Below are positions 1-15,331 of a stretch of DNA of 64,000 bases, in pieces. The notes beneath the pieces were generated by a model that saw only the letters and a list, made by a program, of their open reading frames with translations, did no database searches and was not told the origin of the DNA. Each line of letters starts with the position of its first letter. Within the stretch, counting starts at the first letter, position 1. Origin of the DNA: Proteinivorax tanatarense. Its GTDB lineage: Bacteria; Bacillota; Proteinivoracia; Proteinivoracales; Proteinivoracaceae. Where the stretch lies: contig NZ_CP158367.1 in assembly GCF_040267685.1 (NCBI RefSeq), forward strand, positions 2,666,001 to 2,730,000, in the 5' to 3' direction. Made by a program: the position numbers and the translations under genes.

Positions 1-742
1 ATAACTGCTAAACTTCCTCCACTTTCAGGAAAGGCTGCTGGAAGAACAAGTCCTGCAATTAAGCCTACAATACCGGAAGCCATAACTGGTCCATGACCTA
101 AACGATGAGATATGGCATAGGTTATAACACCTGCAAATACTGAACATATTATTATTTTCACCATCATATCTACGTTAGGAATTTCTGCACTTAAAAATTC
201 CTGACCTGTTAACAACCCGGTAACTATGCACCCTGTAAAGGCAATGGTACCAAATTTACCACCAAACCCGTTAAAGACTATTTTAGATATGACAAATACT
301 ATACCTGCAATTGCTCCTGCAACAATTATTGAAATATAAGAAGAGAGCAGTGCCTCCGAAGCCATACCCACAAAAGCTCCTGTATATAATGGTGCACCTA
401 GTTTGGGAACTACCAAAGCCGCTAAAACCCCCACAGCCCCTGCAGCTACCACTGCACCAAGTTGAAGCTCTACACTTAAAAAGTACGTTATAACAGCTCC
501 TATAACTATTGAAAGAAAGTTATAAAAGTCATTGACATCAAACTTAGTTGTCTCATAATTACTAACTAGATTTAACGATATTTCTTTTTTCATTGCGTAT
601 ATAATACCTACAATCGCGATAGTTAAAACCGAAGAAGTAAAGAAGTGGTTTGCAGCAAAGGCAGCATAAAGCCCTGCAGTATATAAAATTAAACACATAA
701 CAACTAAAATTACATAGCCTAAAGTCCAAATTGCTTTTTGCA
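1..742 (-). CDS. Polytopic membrane protein, fused form (3' end off the window)
   Basis: An open frame begins at ATG 740-742, after a TTTAGGAGGC-like ribosome site, and runs without a stop off the left edge (247 codons visible). It is very hydrophobic, with many Ala/Gly/Val/Ile membrane segments. Near residue 160 it carries FGGKLGTIA. I cannot name the family with certainty. Its first half resembles the small protein at 31581-31952 and its second half (HRLGHGPVMASGIVGLIAGL) resembles the protein at 31149-31568, so this is a fused version of that pair. It is the last visible gene of the NuoF-like/hydrogenase/formate dehydrogenase operon; its paralogues sit beside fdhD. A role in formate or ion movement linked to formate dehydrogenase is an inference from context only. 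Confidence 0.75.
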
Positions 743-761
743 TAGTTTGCCTCCTTTTTTT

Positions 762-808
762 AATTTTCAACAATGCGGCTCAACGATAGAGCCACATTGT
801 TGAAAATT
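762..808 (-). other. 20-bp intercistronic stem-loop after fdhF
   Basis: Arms 762-781 and 789-808 pair over 20 bp. The only imperfect pair is a G-U wobble in the minus-strand RNA (it would be A-C in a plus-strand RNA), which argues for function in the fdhF transcript. It begins 2 nt after the fdhF stop. It is followed by A-rich sequence and the next ribosome site rather than a U run, so it looks like an mRNA-stabilising or processing element rather than a simple terminator. Confidence 0.6.
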
Positions 809-810
809 TT

Positions 811-3507
811 TTAACCCAGTTTTTCTATATTAACACCTGTAACCTTCAAACTTGGAATACTAGCTTTAGCATCTAATAGTTCGGAGTTAGTTAACACGTT
901 TGCTCCATCTTTAAAGTGGAAAGGTACGCTAACTACTTTGTCAGAAACTAACTCTGTTATAAACGCTCTAGGTTTTATTTCACCTCTTGGTGAAGTTACC
1001 TTTACCACTTCTCCATTTTCTATCCCAAGCTTTTCTGCTGTGTTAGGACTGATTTCTACAAAGGTTTCATTGACAAGTTTGTTTACGCCCTCTGTTTTAC
1101 CAGTCATTGTCGAGGTGTGGTATTGATATAGGACACGGCCGCTGGTCATAATATAAGGATAATTACCTTTATCAGATAACTCCGGCGTTTCTTCAAATTC
1201 AACCGGCACTAGCAAGCCCTTACCCCTTGCTGGCTGGTTTGAGTGTAAGAATTTGGTACCTGGATGCTCTTCATTTGGACAAGGCCACTGAATTCCTTCA
1301 TCTTTAATGCGTTCGTATGTGATACCAGCATAAGATGGAGTTACAGCTCTTATTTCTTCGAATACCTCTTCTGCAGTTTCAAAGTTATTCTCATATCCTA
1401 AAGTTCTCATTAGTTCAACAAATATTTGCCAATCTGGTTTTGCTTCTCCAGGAGCGCTCACTGCTTTTCTTACCCTTTGGACTCTTCTTTCGGTATTAAC
1501 AAAAGTTCCATCTTTTTCTGCAAAGGCAGCAGCTGGTAAAACAACATCAGCAAGCTCTGCTGTCTCCGTTAAAAATATATCCTGTACAACTAAGAAACTT
1601 TCTTTTAGCCCCTTAATTACATGGTTTGTATCGGGATCGGATAACACAGGGTTTTCTCCCATAATGTAAAGCATTTTAATTTTTCCGCTTTCTGCATGTT
1701 TCATCATATGGGTCATGGTCATTCCATTTTCCCCAGATAGCTTTGTTCCCCAAGCCTTTTCAAACTTTTCCTGAGCTTTTTTATCGGCAACAGGCTGATA
1801 TCCAGTATAAACGATAGGTAAAGCACCCATATCACAGGCTCCCTGTACGTTGTTTTGACCCCTTAGCGGGTTAATTCCTGTTCCTTCTCTCCCCAAGTTG
1901 CCAGTAACCAAAGCTAGATTAGATAGACTGATAACACCGTCTGTTCCTTTATGATGTTGAGTTATTCCCATGCAGTACATAATACTTCCTCTATCGTATT
2001 TAGCGTACATTCTGGCAGCTTTTCGGATATCTTCTGCATCTACCTCACAGATCTCTGCTACCTTTTCTGGGGTGTATTTTTTCAATACTTCTTTCAACTG
2101 CTGGAAATCTTCAGTATTTTTCTCAATATACTCTTTGTCCTCTAGACCTTCCTCTAAAATCACATTTAGCATTCCATTTGATAATGCAATACTGGTACCT
2201 GGTTTAATTTGCAAAAATACATCAGATACATCCTCCAGTGAAATTTTGCGAGGATCAGCTACTATTAATTTGGCGCCTTTTTTAACGGCTCTTCTAATAC
2301 GCGCTCCAATAACAGGGTGATTTTCTTCTGTATTTGTACCTGTTAAGAATATAACTTCTGCCTTGTCTATTTCTTCGATACTATTTGTCATAGCTCCACT
2401 TCCAAGTGTAGTTGCAAGACCTGCAACTGTAGAGCTGTGTCAGAGTCGAGCACAGTGATCAACGTTGTTTGTACCGATACCTGCCCTAAAAAACTTAGTC
2501 ATCATATAATTATCTTCTGTTAAAGCTCTAGCGGAAGAAAATCCACCGATAGCATCGGGTCCATCTTGTTCTTTAATTTCAGTTATTTTATCCGCTATTT
2601 TTTGGTAAGCTTTCTCCCAAGTTGCTTCTATAAGCTCACCATTTTCTCTTACAAGTGGTTTGCTTAGTCTATCAGGGTGGTTAATAAAATCAAAAGCGAA
2701 CTTGCCTTTTACACAAAGTAAACCTTGATTCAACTTGCCTTTTACGGGATTGACCTCTACTATCTTGTCATCCTTAGTGGAAAGTTCTAGCTGACAACCA
2801 ACTCCACAGTACGAACAGGTAGTTTCAACTTTTTCTGTTTCCCAGTACCTATATTTATGCTTTGCTTTGGGCATCAATGCCCCTACTGGACAGTTTGAAA
2901 CACAGTTTCCACAGGATACACAATCTGTCTTGGTTAACTCTCTCTCAATGTTTTGGGGAGCTTTAACATACCCCTGTATTCCTTGTCTTACTAGAGATAA
3001 CCCTTCTACACCCTGTAACTGCGTGCAGATTTCTACACATTTTCCGCAGGCGATACATTTCTCTCTATCAATGTAGTAAAAAGGATTTTTGTCGAAAAGT
3101 TCCTTTGGAGCTATATTTTCTCTGAAATAGTCAGGGCCTTGAACATCGTATTTATAGCAATACGTTTGCAAATCACAATGCCCCGACTTTTCACAGGTTA
3201 AACAATCTAAAGGATGATCAGCTAAAATCTCTTTAAGAATCTCTTGTCTAGCTCTAACTACATTGTCCGATTCTGTCCAAATTTCCAAATTATCCTTTAC
3301 TATTACATCAGTAGAATCAACTAAACTCTCTTCTCCTTTTATTTCAACAATACTTAAGTCAGCCCCACTATCTACAGTTTTCATATCAAAGCGTTCGTCA
3401 TAATTTAAAGTTGGTATATTTATGTCGTTTAAGCGAGCTGCATTAAAAACACTTATTCCCTCTTCACATTGAACAGGTCGTCCGTTAATTTTAATCGTTA
3501 TCATCAT
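811..3507 (-). CDS. fdhF: Selenocysteine formate dehydrogenase, NuoG-like N-terminus
   Basis: Molybdenum/tungsten bis-MGD formate dehydrogenase catalytic subunit of about 898 residues, read through an in-frame UGA at 2440-2442 (residue 356) in the motif DHCARL-U-HSSTVAGL. The two open frames on either side of the UGA are one gene. Order of parts: a ferredoxin-like fold that has lost its [2Fe-2S] cysteines, a His-Cys3 [4Fe-4S] site (HPLDCLTC..GHCDLQ), two ferredoxin [4Fe-4S] motifs (CIACGKC, CVSCGNC), the FDH [4Fe-4S] (CSYCGVGC), then the MGD domains. I chose ATG 3507, which lies 5-6 nt after AGGGG; the GTG at 3513 lies in the ribosome site. It overlaps the end of hydA. Expected to be cytoplasmic and to form a complex with the hydrogenase encoded upstream. 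Confidence 0.95.
2410..2428 (-). promoter_or_regulatory. SECIS element of fdhF
   Basis: Eleven nt after the UGA the mRNA can form AGTTGCA-GGUCU-TGCAACT, a stem with the GGUCU apical loop also present in the E. coli fdhF SECIS that binds SelB. It supports reading the UGA as selenocysteine. Confidence 0.85.
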
Positions 3508-5260
3508 ATTCACCCCTTACATCAATATTTTTCTTTGAGCGATCAATATAGTGGGTATGAAGTAAATCATGAGCTTTATGTCCACCAGGCTGTCCTAAAT
3601 AATTATCATACAATTTGCTAATTAGAGGATTCTCATGAGAACGGCGCAAGATAGAGCTTCCGTCTGTTTTATAAATACCTGCCATTCTCTTTTTGACTGT
3701 TTCCATAGAATCTGGGATAGGAGCTCCTCCTCCGTTAATGCAACCTCCTACACATCCCATTATTTCAACAAAGTGGTATTTTTTTTCACCATTATCAATC
3801 TTTTTCATTAGCTCCTTTGCAGCAGCTGTACCATGGACAACAGCAATTTTAACCTTCATATCTGCTATTTTAATCTCTGCTTCTTTAGCATTTGTCAGTC
3901 CTCTTACACCTTCATACTCTATTTTGTCTAGTTCACCATCACTAAGTTTCCAAGCAACTGTTCTTAAAGCTGCTTCCATAACTCCACCTGTTGTACCAAA
4001 AATTCTTCCAGCACTAGTGTGATCTCCTAAAAAGTTGTCAAAACTTTCTTCGTCAAGCTTTGCAAACTGAATTTTTTCCATTTTTATCATTTTTGCTAGT
4101 TCTCTCGTTGTCAGTACCGCATCTACATCTTTTAGGCCGTTGACTTTTAGTTCTTCTCTATCTGCTTCGAATTTTTTAGCAGTACAAGGCATTATAGATA
4201 GGCTAAATATTTTTTGAGGATCTAAATCATTAATCTCTGCATAATAGGATTTAGACAAAGCACCGAACATTTGTTGTGGTGATTTACAAGAAGATACATT
4301 TTCCAATAAGTGGGGATAATTATGTTCTACATACTTTACCCAACCTGGAGAGCAAGATGTTAACAACGGAAGCTTTTCACCTTTTTGGACTCTGTCAATA
4401 AACTCAGTTCCCTCTTCCATTATTGTCAAGTCTGCTGTAAAATCGGTGCTAAATACTTTGTCTACACCTAGCTTCCTTAAGGCTGCGTTGGTTTGTCCTG
4501 TAACATCAGTGCCAGGCTCCAACCCAAACTCTTCACCCAAAGTGTGTTTAACAGCTGGTGCTGTTTGTACCACTACGTGTACATTAGGATCATTTATAGC
4601 TGTACGTACTCTTTTGATGTCATTTTTCTCTACTAACGCCCCTACAGGACATACTTTTATACATTGACCACAGTTTATACAATCGGTTTCTAAAATAGGT
4701 TCCTTTTCTTTAGTGTTAATGACTGTGTCATGTCCTCTTTCAGTATAATCATAAATGCCTATGTCCTGTGTTTCCGAACAAACTCTAACACAGTTTCCAC
4801 ATACTATACATTTATTTACATCTCTAGTAATCGAAGTACTTGATAAATCAAGGACTTCTTTTTGTGGCAAAGTCTCCAGCAATTGCTCTTTTCTATTAAC
4901 ATCATATTGATAACAAAGGTTTTGCAATTCACAATCGCCAGCAACTTTATCGCAAGTCAAGCAATCATTTGGGTGATTGGCAATTAAAAGTTCTAACGTC
5001 GCTTTTCTAGAATCTTTAATTTTCTCTGTTTCTGTGCGCACTATCATTTTATCTTTTACTTTAGTATTACAGGAAGCCAAAAGTTCCTCTTCTCCATCAA
5101 CCTCCACAACACACATCCTACAATTTCCCTCATTATTCAAATCGGGATGAGTACATAAAGTAGGGATGTTAACTCCATTTTTCTTACATACATCCAAAAT
5201 TGAATTATCTTCCGTAGCAACTACATTTTTATCGTTTATAGTTAATCCAACTGTTGCCAT
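3491..5260 (-). CDS. [FeFe]-hydrogenase catalytic subunit, M3 type
   Basis: About 589 residues. It has a plant-type [2Fe-2S] domain (Cys 36, 47, 50, 64), a His-Cys3 [4Fe-4S] (HPNDCLTC..GDCELQ), two ferredoxin clusters (CIVCGNC, CINCGQC), then the H-cluster domain with TSCSPGW, MPCTAKKFE and EIMGCVGGCINGGG, and a small-subunit-like tail ending near LYDNYLGQPGGHKAHDLL. Ser stands where C. pasteurianum hydrogenase I has the proton-relay Cys 299 (TSCCPGW). It catalyses reversible H2 oxidation/proton reduction. I chose ATG 5260, 7 nt after AAGGAGG, over the ATG at 5266 which abuts the ribosome site. It lies between the NuoF-like gene and fdhF, so the three products probably form one complex. Confidence 0.95.
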   Translation of the reverse strand: MATVGLTINDKNVVATEDNSILDVCKKNGVNIPTLCTHPDLNNEGNCRMCVVEVDGEEELLASCNTKVKDKMIVRTETEKIKDSRKATLELLIANHPNDCLTCDKVAGDCELQNLCYQYDVNRKEQLLETLPQKEVLDLSSTSITRDVNKCIVCGNCVRVCSETQDIGIYDYTERGHDTVINTKEKEPILETDCINCGQCIKVCPVGALVEKNDIKRVRTAINDPNVHVVVQTAPAVKHTLGEEFGLEPGTDVTGQTNAALRKLGVDKVFSTDFTADLTIMEEGTEFIDRVQKGEKLPLLTSCSPGWVKYVEHNYPHLLENVSSCKSPQQMFGALSKSYYAEINDLDPQKIFSLSIMPCTAKKFEADREELKVNGLKDVDAVLTTRELAKMIKMEKIQFAKLDEESFDNFLGDHTSAGRIFGTTGGVMEAALRTVAWKLSDGELDKIEYEGVRGLTNAKEAEIKIADMKVKIAVVHGTAAAKELMKKIDNGEKKYHFVEIMGCVGGCINGGGAPIPDSMETVKKRMAGIYKTDGSSILRRSHENPLISKLYDNYLGQPGGHKAHDLLHTHYIDRSKKNIDVRGEYDDND

Positions 5261-5280
5261 TTTCATACCTCCTTTAGCTT

Positions 5281-6438
5281 TTATTCCTTATGTTGAAGAC
5301 TCGCCATAATTGGATTTATAGCTTTATTTCCAAACCCACATAAAGAAGAATCTTTTATTGCTTTTGCAAAAAGCTCCACTAGTTTAACCTTATCCCGCTC
5401 TCCTTCAAAGACGGCTGGCACAAGATCCCCCATTCTCTTTAGTCCCTCTCTACATGTGGAACATTTGCCACATGATTGCTGTGAATTATGTTGCACTGAG
5501 TTAACAATAAGTTCTGTTAACCTTTTTTTATCTTCTATAACTTCTACAGGGCTCGCCCCAAGTAAAAAACCTTCCTTCTTTGAGGTTGCATAATCAATCT
5601 TTGTTGTTTTTAGTTGTTCCTCGGTTAAAACTCCACCTAAACTTCCCCCAACATTTATAGCATACAGGTTGGGAATGTTTATTCTTTCACTTGCTTTTTT
5701 AATTAGTTCTTCGAAGTTAGAGCCCAGCTCCATAGTAACTAGACAACCTTCCTGACCATTATTTACATAAAATACTTTGCATCCATAATTATCTGCTTCC
5801 CCCATAGTCTTAAACCATGAGCTTCCATTTTCCACTATTAAAGATATATTAATTAAAGTTTCTACGTTAGCAATAAATAGCTTGCTTTGCTGCCATGTAT
5901 TTTTGGCTTCTAAAAATGGGTAACGTCCGTGACTTAAATTTTCTTTATAATTAGTTAAAAGTGCTATGTCATTATTAAAAAAAATATTCTTTTCATCTAC
6001 ATCAATAATGTCAATTTTTAACTCTTTAGCCTTAAAATAACCCATTTTCCCCATTTGTTTAATAGTTAGTTTTAACATTCTACTAATCAACTGGTGGCTT
6101 TCGTTTATAAAAATGCTAACTTTTGATGCTTTTACCGCTTTTGCAGATAAAACTAAACCTTGAACTAAGTGGTAGGTATTCGATGAAGCTAAGCCATTAT
6201 CTAACTTTGAATTGCCGATATGCAAAACTACTTCTTTAGAGCCAGTATATTTTGCTACCTCTTCCATATAATTACCGATAAATATTTTTCTACCATCCCT
6301 GCTGAGCAGCTCAGCTTCTTTTATCTCTTTAATAACTTCTTCGCCTTTACTTTCTACGACAGCCATTGAGTCAAAAGCGAGTTTCTCCACATCATATTTT
6401 TCTAAATCTTGTTCGTTTAGAGATAAAACTCTTTCCAT
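5281..6438 (-). CDS. NuoF/HydB-like iron-sulfur subunit lacking visible flavin and NADH motifs
   Basis: 385 residues. The C-terminal [4Fe-4S] site of NuoF-type subunits is intact: SCGKCSTCREG followed about 40 residues later by LCGFG. The N-terminal half keeps only loose resemblance to the NuoF flavin domain: I cannot find the glycine-rich GRGGAGFPTG loop nor the ADEGEPGTFKDR-type stretch, and the protein is shorter than complex I NuoF (about 430-450) and much shorter than HydB. It is the first gene of the operon, with AAGGAGG well placed before ATG 6438. It may have become a structural or electron-wiring subunit that does not use NAD(P)H; this is inference from missing motifs. Confidence 0.8.
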   Translation of the reverse strand: MERVLSLNEQDLEKYDVEKLAFDSMAVVESKGEEVIKEIKEAELLSRDGRKIFIGNYMEEVAKYTGSKEVVLHIGNSKLDNGLASSNTYHLVQGLVLSAKAVKASKVSIFINESHQLISRMLKLTIKQMGKMGYFKAKELKIDIIDVDEKNIFFNNDIALLTNYKENLSHGRYPFLEAKNTWQQSKLFIANVETLINISLIVENGSSWFKTMGEADNYGCKVFYVNNGQEGCLVTMELGSNFEELIKKASERINIPNLYAINVGGSLGGVLTEEQLKTTKIDYATSKKEGFLLGASPVEVIEDKKRLTELIVNSVQHNSQQSCGKCSTCREGLKRMGDLVPAVFEGERDKVKLVELFAKAIKDSSLCGFGNKAINPIMASLQHKE

Positions 6439-6538
6439 CTTAAAACCTCCTTAAATTTCGTTTATAGATATCTCCCTGTAGCTACAGTACTTTTCCATCA
6501 CCTCCAAATACCTTTAAAATATTTATTGTTATATAAAG

Positions 6539-6554
6539 AGCAATTGTCATGCCA
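6539..6554 (-). promoter_or_regulatory. Sigma-54 promoter of the hydrogenase/formate dehydrogenase operon
   Basis: On the minus strand TGGCATGACAATTGCT matches the sigma-54 consensus TGGCAC-N5-TTGCW, with GG and GC separated by exactly 10 nt. It would start transcription about 90 nt before the NuoF-like gene. No good sigma-A promoter is visible in this leader. A perfect palindrome CTGTAGCTACAG lies in the leader at 6476-6487. Confidence 0.8.
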
Positions 6555-6608
6555 AAAATATAATTCTTAAAACCCGCCAAACATAGCCATGCACCTAACA
6601 TTTCAACC

Positions 6609-6723
6609 GTCCTAATTTTAGGACAAAATTCGAGCTATTTCATTTTTTTTCGCCTCAATCGCTTTATGCCAGTGAAGCAATTGAGAGTGTCTTTGTTTTC
6701 GGACATCGTCTTTAAACTAGGAC
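6609..6723 (-). promoter_or_regulatory. Three 16-bp enhancer-like sites (upstream activating sequences)
   Basis: Site 1 (6609-6624) is the perfect palindrome GTCCTAATTTTAGGAC. Sites 2 (6689-6704, GTCTTTGTTTTCGGAC) and 3 (6708-6723, GTCTTTAAACTAGGAC) match it at 12 and 11 of 16 positions and keep GTC at one end and GGAC at the other. They lie about 55-185 bp upstream of the sigma-54 promoter, the usual place for activator binding. The Fis-type HTH of the activator at 8875-11121 is the likely reader. Confidence 0.65.
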
Positions 6724-6741
6724 ACCTTTTTATCCCATGAT

Positions 6742-6797
6742 TTTAAACTAAAAAATGGTACCTGCTAGTAATAGCAGATACCATTTTTTAGTTTAAA
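6742..6797 (-). terminator. Intrinsic terminator of the MCP-fused sensor gene
   Basis: A long inverted repeat (arms 6742-6760 and 6779-6797, core TGGTATCTGCTA) with flanking A/T tracts. Its right arm overlaps the last codons and stop of the sensor gene. Confidence 0.8.
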
Positions 6798-8680
6798 TTG
6801 TTTTTTCCAGTTAGTTCAGAAGAAGTATTAGATAAATCTTCTAATGACGAATTTGTTTCCTCAGATATAGCCATAACGTTTTCCATTTTTTCTCCTACAA
6901 TGCTAATAACTTTATTAAGTTTATCTACTGAATCTTCTATGGTTTTTACACTCTTTACTCCACTACTATTATTTTTTTCTGTTTGGGATACCACAACCTC
7001 AGATTGTTCTGCAAGCTTTCTAACTTCCTCAGCAACAACGGCAAACCCCTTACCCGCGTCTCCTGCTCTGGCCGCTTCTATAGATGCATTTAAAGCAAGC
7101 AAGTTAATTTGTTCTGCAATTTCTACAATTTTGTTTGACATTTCTTCATGCTCCGAAAAAGTTTTCGTCAATAAATCAACGCTGTTAATAGTATCTTGAG
7201 ATGCAGTTTCTATATCTCCCATCTGACTGTTTATTTCATACATATCTTTAGCCGTCTCTTCTGAAACTTTGGTCAAATCATTAATAATGCTGTTTATATT
7301 TTCTGCCCCTTGCTTTATGTTTTCCAATAACATCTCTTGTTTTCGGGAGTTTTTTCTAGTTAACTCTGCATTTTGTCGTTCTTCATTTAACAACTTTTCC
7401 TGTTTGATTTCCCCTTCTCTTCTATTATATTCTATACAGTTTTCTAAAACGTTGTAATTTAAGGCAATAACTTTAACCATATCTTCACAACTTTTATAAC
7501 CACAAGCAGCACAATCAAAATTTTTATCTTCATCGGTTTTTTTGTGAAGTTTACTGTAAATTATATCCTTTTGATTTTGTTCAACCTCCTTCTCTTTCCA
7601 TCTATTATTATAAGTTACTTTAAAGTCATCTACCCGTAGCTTTTTCTCGAATTTTTTCATCATATCTCTTGGAGAAACTTTCGAAAAAAGCCCTTTCTTT
7701 TGTGCAGTTATTTTTTTAGTCTTCTCATACAAAATAGCATCCATTTCATCAGGGCTCATCATGTCTTCGGTAGCAGTTCCCAGCAAACATCCTTCTGAGC
7801 AATTAAGTATATCTATAACAAAAGGAAGCTTCCCCTGTTTTTTGTTGATACCAGATAAATAGTTTTGAACTAATTTAGGCCCTTCAATTTTTTTAATATG
7901 AAATCCCTTTCCATAAACCTGCTCAATACTTTCTTTTAATCCCCCAGGAGTGGGATACCAAAACCCTACTAAACTTTCAGGAGAGTCAAAGTTTTCTTCT
8001 TTTTCCCATTCCCCTTCTTTTCTATACAGCTCCATAATTTTCTTAAATGTAATGTTATAATCAATATGCTTATGTCTTCTGAATTCGTCGGTTTTTGCTA
8101 TACAAGGCGACAGTGCAGCTATATTCCCCTCAAACCCTTCATATTTTTTCAAATATATAGCTGCACAAGACATAGGTGAACCAACCGGGCTTAAATATTT
8201 TAATAAATTTGGATAATATCGTTCGATACTGTTCACAATCACAGGACATGGTTGAGAAATGATAGTTTGTATACTTTTTTCTTCAAAAATTTTCATATAA
8301 AGAAATGTAGTGATATCTGCCCCAAAGCTAACATCATAAATCAATTGGATTCCTTTACTCTTTAACCAAGCAAACACCTTTTTGTACTCATCGGGATAAT
8401 TTAACATAAAAGCAGGGGCAACTACTATGGATATTTTTTTGTTTTGCTGAAGATCTGTTAAAAGCTGCTCTATATCGTCTTGATAATATCTGGCTTGATG
8501 GGTACAAGCTTTTATACACTCTCCACATGTTATACACTCCTCATTTGCTATATCAACTTTTATTGCCCCAGATTCATCTTTAAAGGCTTTATTGGCCAAT
8601 ACTTGAGGGCATTCCCTAATACATTTATCGCATCCTGTACATTGTTCTTTATCGGTTTTTATTATTTTTTCTCCTAACAT
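6788..8680 (-). CDS. H-cluster-domain sensor fused to a chemotaxis (MCP) signalling domain
   Basis: 630 residues, no membrane segment, so cytoplasmic. Order: two [4Fe-4S] ferredoxin motifs ([23 protein letters not shown]), an [FeFe]-hydrogenase-like domain (about 65-330) that keeps the four H-cluster cysteines in [16 protein letters not shown] and NCSEGC, a C-x2-C-x4-C-x16-C cluster domain (CAACGYKSC), a coiled coil, then the MCP hairpin tip ([21 protein letters not shown]). It probably converts H2 or redox state into a chemotaxis-type signal. The RBS AGAGGAGG precedes ATG 8680. It has its own sigma-54 promoter and sits between the hydrogenase operon and the sigma-54 activator gene. Whether it binds a real H-cluster is unknown. 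Confidence 0.9.
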
Positions 8681-8740
8681 ATTTGTCCTCCTCTAAAGCT
8701 AATATAATATAGATCATTTAATTATATAAACAAATAATAT

Positions 8741-8756
8741 AGCAAATACTGTGCCA
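8741..8756 (-). promoter_or_regulatory. Sigma-54 promoter of the MCP-fused sensor
   Basis: TGGCACAGTATTTGCT on the minus strand is a full match to TGGCAC-N5-TTGCT, about 60 nt upstream of the start codon. I see no clear copy of the GTCC..GGAC sites in the 100 bp upstream; a short palindrome CTTAAAAATTATTAAG lies at 8801-8816. Confidence 0.85.
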
Positions 8757-8823
8757 GTAAAAAACAAGCTGCTTTCCCCTTATTTACTCCGCCCCATTAA
8801 CTTAAAAATTATTAAGTAAAAGA

Positions 8824-8862
8824 GGCTGCACCATTATAGGATAATCCTATGATGGTGCAGCC
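8824..8862 (-). terminator. Intrinsic terminator after the sigma-54 activator gene
   Basis: Arms 8824-8841 and 8845-8862 (GGCTGCACCAT..) form an 18-bp stem with a 3-nt loop and one mismatch, followed on the minus strand by TCTTTTACTT. It lies 12 nt after the stop codon of the activator. Confidence 0.85.
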
Positions 8863-8874
8863 ATTGTCATATCT

Positions 8875-11121
8875 CTAAGATTTTTCTGTTGTTAAGTTAT
8901 ATTTTTTTAGTTTTTCATAGAAATTTGATCGGGATATATTTAAAAGCTTAGCAGCTTTAGTCCTGTTATTATTAGATCGTTTTAGTGCATTAATCAGTAC
9001 CTCTTTTTCCACTCGCTCTAAAATTTCGTCTAAAGGTTTGTTAGGATCAGTTATATTAGTGCCTTGACTTTGATTTTCCCAAATAGATTCAGGTAAATGT
9101 TCTGGTAAAATGGTATCTTCCTCTACAAGATTTAACAATCTCTCTAATAGGTTTTCTAATTCCCTTACATTACCAGGCCAACTATAGTTGCACAACATTT
9201 CTTTTGCCTTTGCGCTAATGGATTTGCAAGGCAATTTATGTTCTTTAGAAATCTTATCTTTGAGTGAATCAATTAGTAAATTTATATCATCTTTATGCCT
9301 CTGCCTTAAAGCTGGAATGGTAAAGGTAAGCACGTTCAGTCTGTAAAATAGGTCTTCTCTAAAGCCACCTTTATTTATTTCTTGTTTTAAATCTTTATTA
9401 GTAGCAGCTATAATTTTAACATCTAGTTTTATTGATTTATCCCCACCAATCCTCATAACTTTTTTATCTTGTATTACCTGCAAAATTTTAGCTTGCATGA
9501 CAGGACTCATATCGCCTATTTCATCTAAGAAAATGGTGCCTTTATTTGCCTGTTCAAATTTCCCTATTTTACCACCTTTTTTAGCTCCTGTAAACGCTCC
9601 TTCTTCATACCCAAATAATTCCGACTCTAAAAGCTCATGGGGTATGGCGCTACAGTTAATTTTAACAAAGGGTTTGTCTTTTCGTTCTCCAAACCTATGA
9701 ATAGTTTCGGCAAAAAGACCTTTACCTGTTCCACTTTCACCTAAAAGTAACACTGTAGAGTCGCTTTTGCTGGCTTTAAAAACAAAGTTCTTAGCTGCCA
9801 GTATTGACTGGGAGCAGCCAACTATGTTTTGGTCTATTTCGTTATACAGTTGCAATAGATTCTGAGCCTTTTTCTGATAGTGAGTCACTCTATTCTCAGT
9901 TAGCTTCAGCAAATAAGGAAGACACATCTCCACCTCAGCAACACCGTGATATACAGCCACTGCTTTATCTCTACAAGTTTCATAACCACAGGCTCCACAG
10001 TTTAGTTCGTCCTGTTTCTCAAATTTCTCACTATATTCTAAAATTCTTACTATTTCTTTTTCTGAAGGGAAACGTTTTTTCTTTTTTAAAACACGAAATT
10101 CTCTCGACAAGTCAATTTCAACGTAATAATCTGGAGATTTGGGGGCCTTTTGCTTTTTTTCTTTTGCAAAATTAACAACTTTATTTTTTTTATATTGATT
10201 AGTACTTTTATCATCATAAAAATCCGGTCCATTTATACATCCTTTACAATATAAGATATCAATAAGTGCCGGTTTGAGCTCATTATTTTCAATACCGTTT
10301 AAAGTTTCTAAAACTTCCTCTTTTCCTTCTACCACAGACACATCATTATTTAGTAAATCGGTATCAATATTAGCTGCTTTTAGCAGCCCACCAGATATAG
10401 GAAACAACTGACCTAAATACTCTTCACTAAGATAGTCCAGGGGTGCTTTCTGACAATCTTCTATATTAATTTTTTTCTTTTTTAATAAGCCCTCTAATTC
10501 AGAAAACAACAGCGCATAATCTACTTTTCCATCTACAGACTCATGGGTAATTTCTGACTTTTTGGCAACACATGGGCCTATAAAAACAACTTCTACCTGT
10601 TCATCCCAACTTTGTTTTACAAGATCAGCCATGGCTATCATTGGTGAAACAATATGAGCTAGATTATCAATTAATTTAGGATAATGTTTTTTGACTATAT
10701 TAATTACGACTGGACAGGGAGATGTTAATATAGGTTTATCCAACGGCTTTTGATAAAGTCTTTTGTACTCTTGTGCTACAATCTCGGCTCCTTGGGCTAC
10801 TTCATAAACTTGACTAAACCCCAGTTTTTTTAATGCTCCCACTAGTTTAAAGGGGTCTTGCTTAAAAGAGGCCACAAAAGATGGAGCCATTAAAGCTACA
10901 GTTTTTGTATTTTTATTGTTAAGAGATGTTTCTACATCAATAACAAAATCCTTTAAGACTTTATTGCTCTGGCTACAGGCTTTTACACAAAAGCCGCAGC
11001 TTACACATTCTTCTTCAATTAAGTTTGCTTGCTCACCTTTAAAACTAATAGCATTTACTGGGCAATGACGCACACAGCAATAGCATCTTTTACATTTTTT
11101 GTCTTGAGATGCTATTATCAT
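8875..11121 (-). CDS. H-cluster-domain sensor fused to a sigma-54 AAA+ activator
   Basis: 748 residues. Order: ferredoxin-type [4Fe-4S] motifs (CKRCYCCVRHCP, CVSCGFCVKAC; 1-60), a hydrogenase-like domain (about 70-340) with TSPCPVV, GPCVAKKSE and YCKGCINGP, a C-x2-C-x4-C-x16-C cluster domain (CGACGYETC, near 385), AAA+ ATPase with Walker A GESGTGKG, the sigma-54 contact loop GAFTGA and Walker B FLDEIGD, and a C-terminal Fis-type HTH. The third H-cluster loop has Cys-x2-Cys rather than Cys-x3-Cys. It probably senses H2 or redox state and opens sigma-54 promoters; two such promoters lie immediately downstream. RBS CTAGGAGG precedes ATG 11121. It follows hydF and may also be read from the maturase operon. 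Confidence 0.93.
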   Translation of the reverse strand: MIIASQDKKCKRCYCCVRHCPVNAISFKGEQANLIEEECVSCGFCVKACSQSNKVLKDFVIDVETSLNNKNTKTVALMAPSFVASFKQDPFKLVGALKKLGFSQVYEVAQGAEIVAQEYKRLYQKPLDKPILTSPCPVVINIVKKHYPKLIDNLAHIVSPMIAMADLVKQSWDEQVEVVFIGPCVAKKSEITHESVDGKVDYALLFSELEGLLKKKKINIEDCQKAPLDYLSEEYLGQLFPISGGLLKAANIDTDLLNNDVSVVEGKEEVLETLNGIENNELKPALIDILYCKGCINGPDFYDDKSTNQYKKNKVVNFAKEKKQKAPKSPDYYVEIDLSREFRVLKKKKRFPSEKEIVRILEYSEKFEKQDELNCGACGYETCRDKAVAVYHGVAEVEMCLPYLLKLTENRVTHYQKKAQNLLQLYNEIDQNIVGCSQSILAAKNFVFKASKSDSTVLLLGESGTGKGLFAETIHRFGERKDKPFVKINCSAIPHELLESELFGYEEGAFTGAKKGGKIGKFEQANKGTIFLDEIGDMSPVMQAKILQVIQDKKVMRIGGDKSIKLDVKIIAATNKDLKQEINKGGFREDLFYRLNVLTFTIPALRQRHKDDINLLIDSLKDKISKEHKLPCKSISAKAKEMLCNYSWPGNVRELENLLERLLNLVEEDTILPEHLPESIWENQSQGTNITDPNKPLDEILERVEKEVLINALKRSNNNRTKAAKLLNISRSNFYEKLKKYNLTTEKS

Positions 11122-11138
11122 ATTATACCATTCCTCCT

Positions 11139-11159
11139 AGGTTTTATTTTTAAACCTAT
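11139..11159 (-). other. Short inverted repeat in the activator leader
   Basis: TAGGTTT and AAACCTA flank a 7-nt spacer directly upstream of the activator ribosome site. It could be an operator or a leader hairpin limiting translation. A TATAAT-like box lies further upstream near 11190. Confidence 0.35.
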
Positions 11160-11204
11160 TAGATTAATACTTTAAAGTGATGTTTTTGTTATTATAACAT
11201 AGTA

Positions 11205-12416
11205 CTATAAATTTTTAGCTGGAGATTTTAGGTTAAAGAATTCAACACATCGAGGAAAGGCACCAGTAAAATAAGCTAAAACGATTCCATAGTTTGTGAT
11301 AGAAATGTTTTTTTCCAGACAATGCTTTATTCTGTTTGTCATAGTTTTTTTATTTAACATACAGGAACCACAGTGTATAACTAAATCATAGCTATCCATA
11401 TTTTCAGGAAAATCACTTCCCATTTTAAAATCGAATTTAATATTTTCATCGATATGCTTTCTGATTAGATTAGGTATTTTTACTCTCCCAATATCTTCAT
11501 GAGAATGATTGTGAGTGCAGCTTTCTGAAATAAGGATTTTAGATTCACTATTCATTTCTTTTAATTTTTCTAACCCCTCTATAAATATTTGTAAATCCCC
11601 TTTGTATCTCGCATATAGCACCGAAAAGCTAGTTAAGTTCATATCTTCAGGTATAATCTGTGTAACTTTTCCAAAAGCCTGAGAATCCGTAATAACTAAG
11701 TCAATGTTTTGAATTTCTTGTAGGGATTCCGCTAGTTCTGTATCCCTAACTACGTGACATTTAATGCCATGGTCTAGGCAGTCCCTTAACACTTGTACTT
11801 GCGGTAATATTAACCTTCCTTTAGGGGCTTCAGAATCTATAGGAACCACCATTACCACATTACCCCCATAAGGAATTAAATCACCGATAATAGGAGGATC
11901 TGTTTCTTTTTCCTGCAACCTATTGATAATCTCTTCTTTTAATCTTAGGATGTTCTCCTGGTGTAGTGCTGAAACAGTTAAAGGGTTATCTAATTTCTGA
12001 GTAAAAGCATCTAAGGCATCCTTATTTACGCAATCTATTTTGTTAACCACAGTAAGGAATGGAATATTATATTTTTTAAATTTTTTTATTGCCTTATGGT
12101 AAGATTTCAAGTCAACATCACTGCCATCCAAAACATAGATAGCAAAGTCTGTCCGCTGCAATATTTTTAATGTTTTACTTACTCGCAAGTTTCCTAATTC
12201 ACTATCATCGTTTAACCCTGCTGTATCAATAAATACAACAGGCCCAAATGGAATAAGCTCCATACTCTTAATTACAGGGTCGGTAGTAGTCCCTTTAATA
12301 TCAGAAACTATTGAAATTTCTTGACCTATTATAGCATTTAGTAATGTTGACTTTCCTGAATTGGTCTTTCCATAAATAGCGATGTGTTTTTTACTTCCCC
12401 TTGGTGTGTTTTGCAT
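11205..12416 (-). CDS. hydF: [FeFe]-hydrogenase maturation GTPase HydF
   Basis: GTPase and scaffold on which the 2Fe subcluster is assembled before transfer to hydrogenase. GTPase motifs: GKTNSGKS (P-loop), GTTTDP, DTAGL and NKID; the C-terminal cluster-binding Cys are in ESCTHNHSHED and HCGSCML. I chose ATG 12416 because it sits after AGGAGAGG and 13 nt beyond the hydG stop; an upstream in-frame start at 12458 would overlap hydG and lacks a ribosome site. About 403 residues, normal for the family. Last of the TM1266-like/hydE/hydG/hydF operon. Confidence 0.95.
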   Translation of the reverse strand: MQNTPRGSKKHIAIYGKTNSGKSTLLNAIIGQEISIVSDIKGTTTDPVIKSMELIPFGPVVFIDTAGLNDDSELGNLRVSKTLKILQRTDFAIYVLDGSDVDLKSYHKAIKKFKKYNIPFLTVVNKIDCVNKDALDAFTQKLDNPLTVSALHQENILRLKEEIINRLQEKETDPPIIGDLIPYGGNVVMVVPIDSEAPKGRLILPQVQVLRDCLDHGIKCHVVRDTELAESLQEIQNIDLVITDSQAFGKVTQIIPEDMNLTSFSVLYARYKGDLQIFIEGLEKLKEMNSESKILISESCTHNHSHEDIGRVKIPNLIRKHIDENIKFDFKMGSDFPENMDSYDLVIHCGSCMLNKKTMTNRIKHCLEKNISITNYGIVLAYFTGAFPRCVEFFNLKSPAKNL

Positions 12417-12429
12417 ATAGTATCCTCTC

Positions 12430-13806
12430 CTATAAGAAAATATCTCTTTTACCGTCATATACCATTTTCAAACAATTAAGTGTACGCCTTCTAAGCTCAT
12501 TGCTGCTGATCTCTTTTACTTTGGAATAAACTAGCTTTTCACCTTTTTCCAAAAGCTCTCTATCCCCGTAGTTTAGTATAAATTCCATAAAAGTAATTAA
12601 GGCATTAGGGGTACAAACGTTCTGAATCTCTCCTTCTTTAGCCATTTTTGCAAATTTTTCACCTGTTCTTCCTTTCCTGTAACACGACGTACAATAGCTA
12701 GGGATATGTCCACAGTCTACAAGTTCTTTTAAAACTTCGATGGGTGCTCTGTTATCGTCAACATCAAACTGTTTATTTTCACCACCTTCAGCTGAATTTT
12801 TATAGGCATTAACACCGGTACATGAGCCTGCACTAATCTGAGATACCCCATACTCGATAACTTCCTTCCTCATCTCAGGTGTCTCTCTAGTGGAAAGAAT
12901 TAACCCAGTATATGGCATAGCTAACCTTAAAATTGCCACTATCTTTTTAAATGATTCATCATCTAAAATATGGGGAAAATCATTAATATCCATCCCTTCG
13001 GCTTTCTTTAATCTAGGTACGGATATAGTGTGAAAACCGACACCATATTGGTTTTCTAAGTGCAGATTGTGCATCATCAAAGCTAAAATTTCAAATTTGT
13101 AATCAGCTAAACCAAATAGCACTCCACCACCTACATCATCTATTCCTGCCTCCATTGCCCTATCGAATGCTTTTAAGTGATAATCATAGTTGCCTTTTTT
13201 TGAGTTTGCATGGACTCTTTGAAAGGTTGGCTTGTGATAGGTCTCTTGAAACAAAATATAGGTTCCAATGTCTGCTTGTTTAAGTTTTTTATAGTTTTCT
13301 ACAGAAGTGGCAGCTATGTTTACATTTATCCTTCTTATATCTCCTTGTTTAGAATAGGTTGAGTATATTGTTTCAATCCCTTCTAAAACGTAGTCAATGT
13401 CACAATTTACTGGATCTTCCCCAACTTCTAAGGCTAACCTTTTATGCCCCATATTCTCCAAAAGAATAACCTCTTCTTCAATCTGTTTTTGATTGAGTCT
13501 CTGCCGCTTAAAATTATTATCCCTTTTATATCCACAATACAAACAGTTATTCACGCAATAATCACTAATATATAGAGGTGCAAAAAGCACTATTCTGTCG
13601 CCATAAATATCCTTCTTTATTTTTCCAGCCGCTTTATAAATCTTATCTAATTGTTTTTTTTCTGAAACTTGCAACAAAGTTGCTACATCCCTGTATGATA
13701 ACCCCTTTTTCTCCAAACCTTTTTGTAGAATTTCATCGATATCTCTTTTGCCATGCCCTATAGTTTCTTCAAGAATATCTTTAATAATATCTGCTTTAAT
13801 ATAAAT
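12430..13806 (-). CDS. hydG: [FeFe]-hydrogenase maturase HydG (tyrosine lyase), probable ATT start
   Basis: Radical-SAM enzyme that makes CO and cyanide ligands from tyrosine. The SAM-cluster motif is CVNNCLYC and the C-terminal cluster has CTSC with a third Cys about 22 residues later. The only conventional start is TTG 13716, which has no ribosome site and cuts off the family's N-terminal helix. In-frame coding continues upstream (YIKADIIKDILEETIGHGKR) to ATT 13806, 6 nt after GGAGGAG and overlapping the hydE stop as TAATT, exactly like the common TAATG junction. From there the protein is 458 residues, the usual length. No ATG/GTG/TTG exists between. Confidence 0.93.
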   Translation of the reverse strand: MYIKADIIKDILEETIGHGKRDIDEILQKGLEKKGLSYRDVATLLQVSEKKQLDKIYKAAGKIKKDIYGDRIVLFAPLYISDYCVNNCLYCGYKRDNNFKRQRLNQKQIEEEVILLENMGHKRLALEVGEDPVNCDIDYVLEGIETIYSTYSKQGDIRRINVNIAATSVENYKKLKQADIGTYILFQETYHKPTFQRVHANSKKGNYDYHLKAFDRAMEAGIDDVGGGVLFGLADYKFEILALMMHNLHLENQYGVGFHTISVPRLKKAEGMDINDFPHILDDESFKKIVAILRLAMPYTGLILSTRETPEMRKEVIEYGVSQISAGSCTGVNAYKNSAEGGENKQFDVDDNRAPIEVLKELVDCGHIPSYCTSCYRKGRTGEKFAKMAKEGEIQNVCTPNALITFMEFILNYGDRELLEKGEKLVYSKVKEISSNELRRRTLNCLKMVYDGKRDIFL

Positions 13807-14852
13807 TATAATCTCCTCCAGTTTTTATGATCTCCGCGAGACATATCTAAAGAGTAACCTATGTTTCTCACCTTCCCCTCAATACACTGTCGACATTCAG
13901 CAGCCTCATCTCCAACACAAATCTTCCCATCATAAAGTGCATATTTTTCTCTAACGCTAGTAGGTGATAAGTTAGGCATTACAACATTTGCGCCAAACTT
14001 TATACCTTGCTCACGTCCTGTAGGATCAATACTACCTAGAGCAGTGGTTGCAGGCAGGAGGACCTTGGGTAGCATAAGTCGTACAATGGCTAGCAAAGTT
14101 ACAACTTGAGTAATAGAGCCATTGGATGCTCCCTCCAGCGGGGTATTTTCATGAGCAATAAAAGGACCTATCCCTACCATTTCTGGTTGCAACTTCTTTA
14201 AAAACAACAAATCTTCCACATAATCTTCGTTAGATTGCCCTGGTAAACCCACCAAAAAACCAGCCCCTACTTGAAATCCAATTTTTTTCAAATCCCAAAG
14301 GCATTTTTTTCTACTTTGAAGACACATGTTAGGATGATACTTATTATATATAGTGGGTGAAGCGGTTTCGTGCCTTAAAAGGTACCTATCCGCCCCTGCT
14401 TCATAGTATTGTTTTAGAGAACTAAAGTTTTTCTCTCCTAAAGATAACGTTAAAGCACATTCAGGAAAAGTCTTTTTAATAGATTTTACTAAGTCAACTA
14501 TTCTTTCATCTGAGTAATAGGGGTCTTCTCCACCTTGTAGCACAAAGGTTCTGTATCCAAGCTTATAACCAAGTTTGCAGCAATCCAAAATTTCTTCTAA
14601 ACTAAGCCTGTACCTGTCTGCATTTTTATTATCATACCTTATTCCACAATAAACACAGTTTTGGATACAATGGTTAGTAAATTCTATAAGCCCTCTGGTA
14701 TAAACTGCCTTCCCATACTCTTGAACTCTTCTTTCATTAGCTTTGTCCCTTAAATAAGTAAGGCTATCCCCGTCCATGTTATTTAACAAATATAAAAACT
14801 CGTCTCGACTTAAAGTTGTTTCCTTAAAAAGCTTGTCTATAGTTGTTTTCAT
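13806..14852 (-). CDS. hydE: [FeFe]-hydrogenase maturase HydE (radical SAM)
   Basis: 348 residues. Radical-SAM motif CIQNCVYCG, then a TIM-barrel pattern typical of HydE/BioB (QGGEDPYY, GFLVGLPGQS). HydE takes part in building the azadithiolate-bridged di-iron unit. A C-terminal ECRQC pair may bind an accessory cluster. Its ATG overlaps the stop of the preceding small gene (ATGA), and its stop overlaps the start of hydG. Confidence 0.95.
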   Translation of the reverse strand: MKTTIDKLFKETTLSRDEFLYLLNNMDGDSLTYLRDKANERRVQEYGKAVYTRGLIEFTNHCIQNCVYCGIRYDNKNADRYRLSLEEILDCCKLGYKLGYRTFVLQGGEDPYYSDERIVDLVKSIKKTFPECALTLSLGEKNFSSLKQYYEAGADRYLLRHETASPTIYNKYHPNMCLQSRKKCLWDLKKIGFQVGAGFLVGLPGQSNEDYVEDLLFLKKLQPEMVGIGPFIAHENTPLEGASNGSITQVVTLLAIVRLMLPKVLLPATTALGSIDPTGREQGIKFGANVVMPNLSPTSVREKYALYDGKICVGDEAAECRQCIEGKVRNIGYSLDMSRGDHKNWRRL

Positions 14853-15106
14853 ACCATAACCTCTTTCTTTGATATAGCTGTTTTTACCGTTACGCTGTCT
14901 ATGCTACCTAATTTCCCTGTAAAACTATTGATTTCATTTAAACTTCCCACAACTGTAATTGAAACTACTGAAATTCCCTGCTCATTAAAAGGGATACCCA
15001 TTCTTCCTCTAACAATTCTACCGTAATTTGAAACAACTCTATTAAACTGTTCTTGACACTTTTGAGGCTCCTCTAAAATAGAGCTTATAACAGCTATTTT
15101 TTTGAT
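14849..15106 (-). CDS. TM1266-like iron-only hydrogenase system regulator, ATC start
   Basis: 85 residues with the signature of the TM1266 family found with hydEFG: KKIAVISSILEEP, GRIVRGRMGIPF, GISVVSITVVG, TGKLGSIDSVTVKTA. The fold is ferredoxin-like (ACT/NikR-like). The frame has no ATG, GTG or TTG between an upstream in-frame TGA and the middle of the gene. ATC 15106 lies 7 nt after GGAG and gives the family's normal N-terminus (initiator-KKIAVI). Alternative: a slip or sequence error in the run of seven A at the start, which would let GTG 15115 be used. Its stop overlaps hydE. Confidence 0.8.
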   Translation of the reverse strand: MKKIAVISSILEEPQKCQEQFNRVVSNYGRIVRGRMGIPFNEQGISVVSITVVGSLNEINSFTGKLGSIDSVTVKTAISKKEVMV

Positions 15107-15150
15107 GAGACCACTCCCTTTTCTGAATTTTCAATCTTATTAAACAAAAT

Positions 15151-15178
15151 AAAACAACTCCTAAAAAGAAGTTGTTTT
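15151..15178 (-). terminator. Attenuator-like hairpin in the hyd maturase leader
   Basis: AAAACAACT and AGTTGTTTT (15151-15159, 15170-15178) form a 9-bp stem followed on the minus strand by ATTTTGTTT, about 45 nt before the TM1266-like gene. It looks like a weak leader terminator. Confidence 0.45.
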
Positions 15179-15257
15179 CAAAAGACGCAACTTATCGAAA
15201 ACTCCCTTTTAGATCAGATTGACTTGAATCTTTTCTTTTAGGTGTTTTATTTTGTTG

Positions 15258-15331
15258 ACCAAATTTAAAAGGTGCCCCTAAGTAAATTTGGTGATTGTGA
15301 ATAGTTTAACAATCATTTCATTTGTTGTCAA
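15258..15331 (-). promoter_or_regulatory. Sigma-A promoter and palindrome of the hyd maturase operon
   Basis: Minus-strand -35 TTGACA (15326-15331) and -10 TAAACT (15303-15308) with a 17-nt spacer. Just past the expected start site lies ACCAAATTTA (15258-15267) and its exact complement TAAATTTGGT (15283-15292), separated by 15 nt: an operator with two half-sites or a leader stem. The leader before the first gene is about 190 nt. Confidence 0.7.

Follow-up and report, generated by a model that had tools for sequence, protein, structure and literature searches.

Introduction

AUC and AUU start codons have been documented mainly for infC, the IF3 gene, and for a few other genes. It is established for infC that initiation at AUN codons proceeds from a normal Shine-Dalgarno (SD) sequence and fMet-tRNA, at a low level and under discrimination by IF3 (PMC5472188). 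The start codon of the Streptomyces infC gene is ATC (PMC5472188). Thus, AUC can serve as a start codon. In the same genus, the sigR gene has a GTC start which is repressed by IF3 and which sets protein ratios (PMC5472188). Among [FeFe] hydrogenase maturation genes, the hydG gene of C. bescii is known to be regulated by Rex (PMC6391272).

Here I describe a TM1266-like gene of Proteinivorax tanatarense which has an ATC codon at its start. It resembles infC in combining a noncanonical AUN start with a good SD sequence. However, infC autoregulates through IF3, while the TM1266-like gene sits in a hydrogenase-maturation operon and its ATC is not common to the congener (G001, the sole genome of the same genus). 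The likeness to sigR is that a regulatory gene (putative in the present case) with a noncanonical start heads a series of genes that are transcribed together and adjoin in translation. Conservation across Streptomyces has been described for the sigR GTC, and this start is proven experimentally, but neither holds for the ATC of the TM1266-like gene. Within the TM1266 family (TIGR03959, PF21699; PDB 2NZC), the gene conforms in sequence, in length, and in its association with hydE, hydG, and hydF, but it is the only one of 77 checked that has no canonical start. As in C. bescii, a Rex-like operator (putative here) lies at the promoter of a hydG-containing operon, while the present operon adds a structured leader with a terminator after the operator. 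A literature search found nothing relevant on the function of TM1266.

Results and Discussion

The TM1266-like gene and its start codon

The window analysed is a stretch of 64,000 nucleotides of the P. tanatarense genome (contig NZ_CP158367.1, positions 2,666,001 to 2,730,000), and coordinates refer to it unless a locus is named. The gene and its start region comprise the following features.

14849 to 15106, minus strand: TM1266-like gene (TIGR03959/PF21699), 85 codons from the ATC, with a TGA stop codon that overlaps the hydE ATG
15104 to 15106, minus strand: ATC start codon, aligned with an ATG of the congener
15114 to 15120, minus strand: SD sequence AAGGGAG, 7 nt before the ATC
14999 to 15001, minus strand: first canonical in-frame codon, an ATG at residue 36, inside the conserved RGRMG motif

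The initial annotation had proposed a TM1266-like gene here without stating its strand. The proposal is confirmed, with the gene on the minus strand, where the uninterrupted translation of 14849-15106 is IKKIAVISSILEEPQ...KKEVMV*. The product exceeds the cut-offs of both family models, with 91.5 bits against TIGR03959 (cut-off 60.8), matched over essentially the whole model (positions 1-75 of 76), and 82.1 bits against PF21699 (cut-off 27). The profile match starts at residue 3, and the closest solved structure is PDB 2NZC (E 5e-8). The hydrogenase association of the family is also seen, as hydE, hydG, and hydF lie directly downstream and each scores above its NCBIfam cut-off. The congener protein is 89% identical, and the P. 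tanatarense protein keeps every residue that does not vary among the other aligned members of the subfamily. The coding sequence is intact, with a dN/dS of 0.045 (dS of about 1) against the congener, a pairwise value that reflects constraint over the history of both species and cannot date a G-to-C change. No second TM1266-like copy was found in a search of the genome, which rules out that this copy is dispensable because of a paralogue.

On the minus strand, GGAG at 15117-15114 is followed by a 7-nt gap and by the ATC at 15106-15104, in agreement with the spacing first reported; the SD sequence is thus normally spaced before an AUN codon. It was likewise confirmed that there is no ATG, GTG, or TTG from the upstream in-frame stop codon (TGA at 15133) to the ATG of codon 36 (15001). 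As in the infC kind of gene, a canonical start compatible with the conserved N-terminus is absent. The gene had been expected to be missed by standard finders, and a program listing ORFs of at least 60 aa from ATG, GTG, or TTG indeed does not report it; AUN starts escape gene finders limited to these three codons. A point against use of the ATC is that the SD sequence is overlapped by a weak 4-bp hairpin (-3.0 kcal/mol). Could translation start at the internal ATG (15001) and yield a fragment of about 50 aa? A GAGG lies a few nucleotides upstream, and an SD-like AGAGGAAG precedes this ATG. However, the fragment would lack the first 35 residues, most of which are within the family domain, and the stretch upstream is also conserved as protein. 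Moreover, AGAGGAAGAATGGG codes for the conserved RGRMG motif, which accounts for the SD-like bases. An internal start is very improbable.

The start regions of orthologues were compared, a check that had been proposed with the annotation, and both the congener and other relatives support the ATC position as the start. The congener has ATG exactly at this codon, with the same SD spacing and without an indel (AGAGGTGGTCTTATGAAAAAGATA against GGGAGTGGTCTCATCAAAAAAATA), and subfamily members more distant than the congener carry ATG, GTG, or TTG there or ATG one codon earlier. Among the 77 family members, which are the distinct ones from the loci analysed, 76 start canonically at this position or close to it (49 ATG, 16 GTG, and 11 TTG) and one, the present gene, does not. 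The observation thus goes beyond chance. In a published survey of 61,358 reconstructed ancestral AUG starts, one switch to AUU and none to AUC was reported (PMC5622118). With an equally spaced ATG and an A run of unchanged length in the congener, the ATC is most simply derived from an ancestral ATG by one base change. The congener ATG also means that conservation of the ATC across species is not supported. The codon is carried by one genome only, and it is thus counted not as an established member of the infC kind but only as working like one.

These alignments also bear on an alternative raised in the initial annotation, namely that a frame started at GTG or TTG is fused to the gene by slippage on the seven A residues after the ATC. 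An upstream frame does open with GTG at 15114 and TTG at 15147, but this frame is not conserved. The congener reads GTG GTC TTA TGA, which stops at once, and the stop codon overlaps the real ATG. The A run has the same length in both species, and the GTG sits directly on the SD sequence (0 nt). With the ATG match and the unchanged A run, the slippage idea falls; the congener alignment contradicts a frameshift there, and I give this reading next to no weight. A sequencing error in the A run that restores a GTG start does not fit either, and any error would concern one base of the start codon.

The ATT start of hydG and other starts in the genome

In the operon, the TM1266-like gene is the first, followed by hydE, hydG, and hydF.

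13806 to 14852, minus strand: hydE; its ATG overlaps the TM1266-like stop codon, and it has its own GAGG 7 nt before the ATG
12430 to 13806, minus strand: hydG; ATT start at 13806-13804 overlapping the hydE stop codon (TAATT), SD sequence GGAGG at 13819-13815
11205 to 12458, minus strand: hydF ORF; the family match begins near the second ATG, at about 12416

The hydG gene also lacks a canonical start. The SD sequence GGAGG in the end of hydE and the N-terminus IYIKADIIKDILEET point to the ATT at 13806. The bases are identical in the congener, that is, in two separate assemblies, and the noncanonical codon is thus conserved between relatives as in the infC kind; other relatives have ATG-TTT-ATA there. 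The sole canonical codon is a TTG at residue 31, while the HydG family match begins at residue 19. Starting at this TTG would remove part of the family domain. The ATA one codon before the ATT is a possible start of hydG and is noncanonical too. In another locus (L124 of genome G018, at about 1500-1620), the hydG frame is broken in an A run near the start, possibly by a sequencing error.

Are such starts common in this genome? Start codons were compared between 264 kb of the genome and 360 kb of the congener genome, in which 143 conserved genes were paired; genes whose conserved frame extends well upstream of the first canonical start were looked at individually and classed by eye. In this 264-kb sample, only the TM1266-like gene and hydG, two of the 143 pairs, are without a canonical start. 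Three selenocysteine genes, genes with a good ATG, GTG, or TTG just inside the alignment, and short opposite-strand ORFs were set aside on inspection. The infC gene of P. tanatarense has an SD sequence and ATT, as expected. The initiator tRNA search found ordinary copies with the anticodon CAU only, and no special initiator tRNA with the anticodon GAU was matched.

Three likely selenocysteine genes have an in-frame TGA and encode SelD (AAG-U-GAK), a MerT-like protein (LC-U-LGP), and a formate dehydrogenase-like protein (about 34187, 45641, and 2439 (-) of the window, respectively). Gene finders would shorten them at the TGA. It was also found that an 11.2-kb block (window 1-11221), ending at the 3′ end of hydF, is 96% identical to the congener, while the regions after it are mostly 66-77% identical. 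The block possibly results from a recent transfer between the two species.

How the AUC codon may be used

The reading that I favor, with slightly better than an even chance, is that the TM1266-like gene is a real, expressed gene whose AUG became AUC by one G-to-C change, that AUC is used at low efficiency, and that HydG is made from AUU by reinitiation. It rests on what the sequence offers: the identity of the gene, the ATC/ATG match, the coding constraint, the hydG ATT in two species, and the ordinary initiator tRNAs. From these I infer the use of AUC, the low protein level, the IF3 sensitivity, the reinitiation, and any benefit. Ordinary fMet-tRNA(CAU) would initiate at AUC with low efficiency, aided by the well-placed SD sequence and by the A-rich sequence that follows. 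Such a start would be subject to discrimination by IF3, and the TM1266-like protein would thus be made in small amounts relative to HydE. HydG would be translated from its AUU by reinitiation after the HydE stop codon. It is probable that weak start signals limit the amounts of protein made from the operon. Were the TM1266-like protein a dose-sensitive regulator, it would be tuned by the weak start; were it dispensable, the change to ATC would amount to mild damage. Regulated translation of the gene, which had been called likely, may be supposed and is made more plausible by the conserved hydG ATT and the infC ATT. If this reading is true, a single metabolic operon contains two AUN starts, of which one is conserved between the species, and the use of AUN extends outside the genes of translation factors.

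The uniqueness of the ATC among the 77 members and its absence from the congener would also be expected if a recent G-to-C change left the gene of this strain largely silent while its frame is still intact. Because hydE keeps an SD sequence of its own, translation of the downstream genes need not depend on the first gene. However, the gene shows no other damage, with the SD sequence and all invariant residues kept, and the genus keeps ATT in the hydG of the same operon. Such a start loss is unlikely, but it deserves consideration. The other concern is that the true base is G and that the gene starts with ATG, since the codon differs from the congener by a single base in one assembly of one strain. 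This assembly is one contig with a completeness of 98.4%, and the conserved-gene comparison shows few broken frames. An error would have to hit the third base of a start codon, and it would leave the hydG ATT, present in two assemblies, unexplained. I consider a sequencing or assembly error rather unlikely. Because the species is represented by one assembly, a base-calling error and a recent null mutation taken jointly retain an appreciable probability, somewhat below even.

The promoter and the leader RNA

The neighbourhood of the gene is more interesting than the single ATC codon. The region upstream of the gene has the following features.

15303 to 15331, minus strand: sigma-A-like promoter, TTGACA-17-TAAACT
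15295 to 15312, minus strand: putative Rex-like operator TTGTTAAACTATTCACAA over the -10 element, conserved in the congener
15258 to 15292, minus strand: 5′ leader hairpin with a 9-bp stem and an AGG-GNNA-CCT apical part, read from the sequence and conserved in relatives
15196 to 15244, minus strand: conserved structured leader element of about 45 nt (covariance model R1), not in Rfam 15
15151 to 15178, minus strand: intrinsic terminator; its 5′ arm can also pair with AAAGGGAGTT in the element above, forming an antiterminator

The sigma-A promoter is a good one, and the putative operator over its -10 element resembles the Rex consensus. The leader (window 15292-15151, minus strand; also in loci L082-L089 and L031-L034) is strongly conserved in the congener and is recognisable in Clostridia MAGs and in Soehngenia. 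Its core, CCTAACAG-AAAAGA-loop-TCT-AT-CTG-AAAGGAA-GTTAGG, is modelled as three stacked helices with covarying pairs. In 12 leader sequences, 77% of the cells pair against 71% in shuffles, and the covariation score is 0.19 against 0.11, a value reached by none of 500 shuffles; relatedness alone can lift unstructured sequences above shuffles, and the same sequences had served to draw the model. The fit of the window's own copy to the outer helix is poor. All 13 leaders checked have a candidate terminator downstream, and AAGGRA(G)TT can pair with its 5′ arm. This antiterminator pairing exceeds most shuffles in nearly all of the 13, the weakest being L032 and L033. Most simply, the leader is read as an attenuator of this operon.

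The R1 model gave 10 strong matches in 398 genomes of the phylum, all before TM1266 genes of the subfamily to which the present gene belongs, and no match in 58 loci of other TM1266 subfamilies. A widespread riboswitch was rejected, as weak extra matches elsewhere adjoin unrelated genes where examined. Rfam gave no match at gathering score at the leaders of the loci searched, only weak ones to unrelated families (window, L031, and L033), and no report of a leader before hydrogenase-maturation genes was found in the literature. From the co-occurrence of the leader with one TM1266 subfamily, I conjecture that the TM1266-like protein is a candidate for its ligand. The leader element is a concrete, testable partner for a family termed a putative regulator. 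By extension, the weak starts (AUC for the TM1266-like protein and AUU for HydG) might be purposeful, setting ratios in an IF3-sensitive manner, with the TM1266-like protein as an autogenous RNA-binding attenuator that acts on the leader (terminator versus antiterminator). I regard this fuller scheme as speculative and doubtful.

A weaker second copy of the leader, with its own terminator, was found before hydG in locus L088 (1843-1883, plus strand). In addition, a cobalamin riboswitch lies downstream of the TM1266 gene in a C. thermobutyricum MAG (L031 4361-4549, plus strand).
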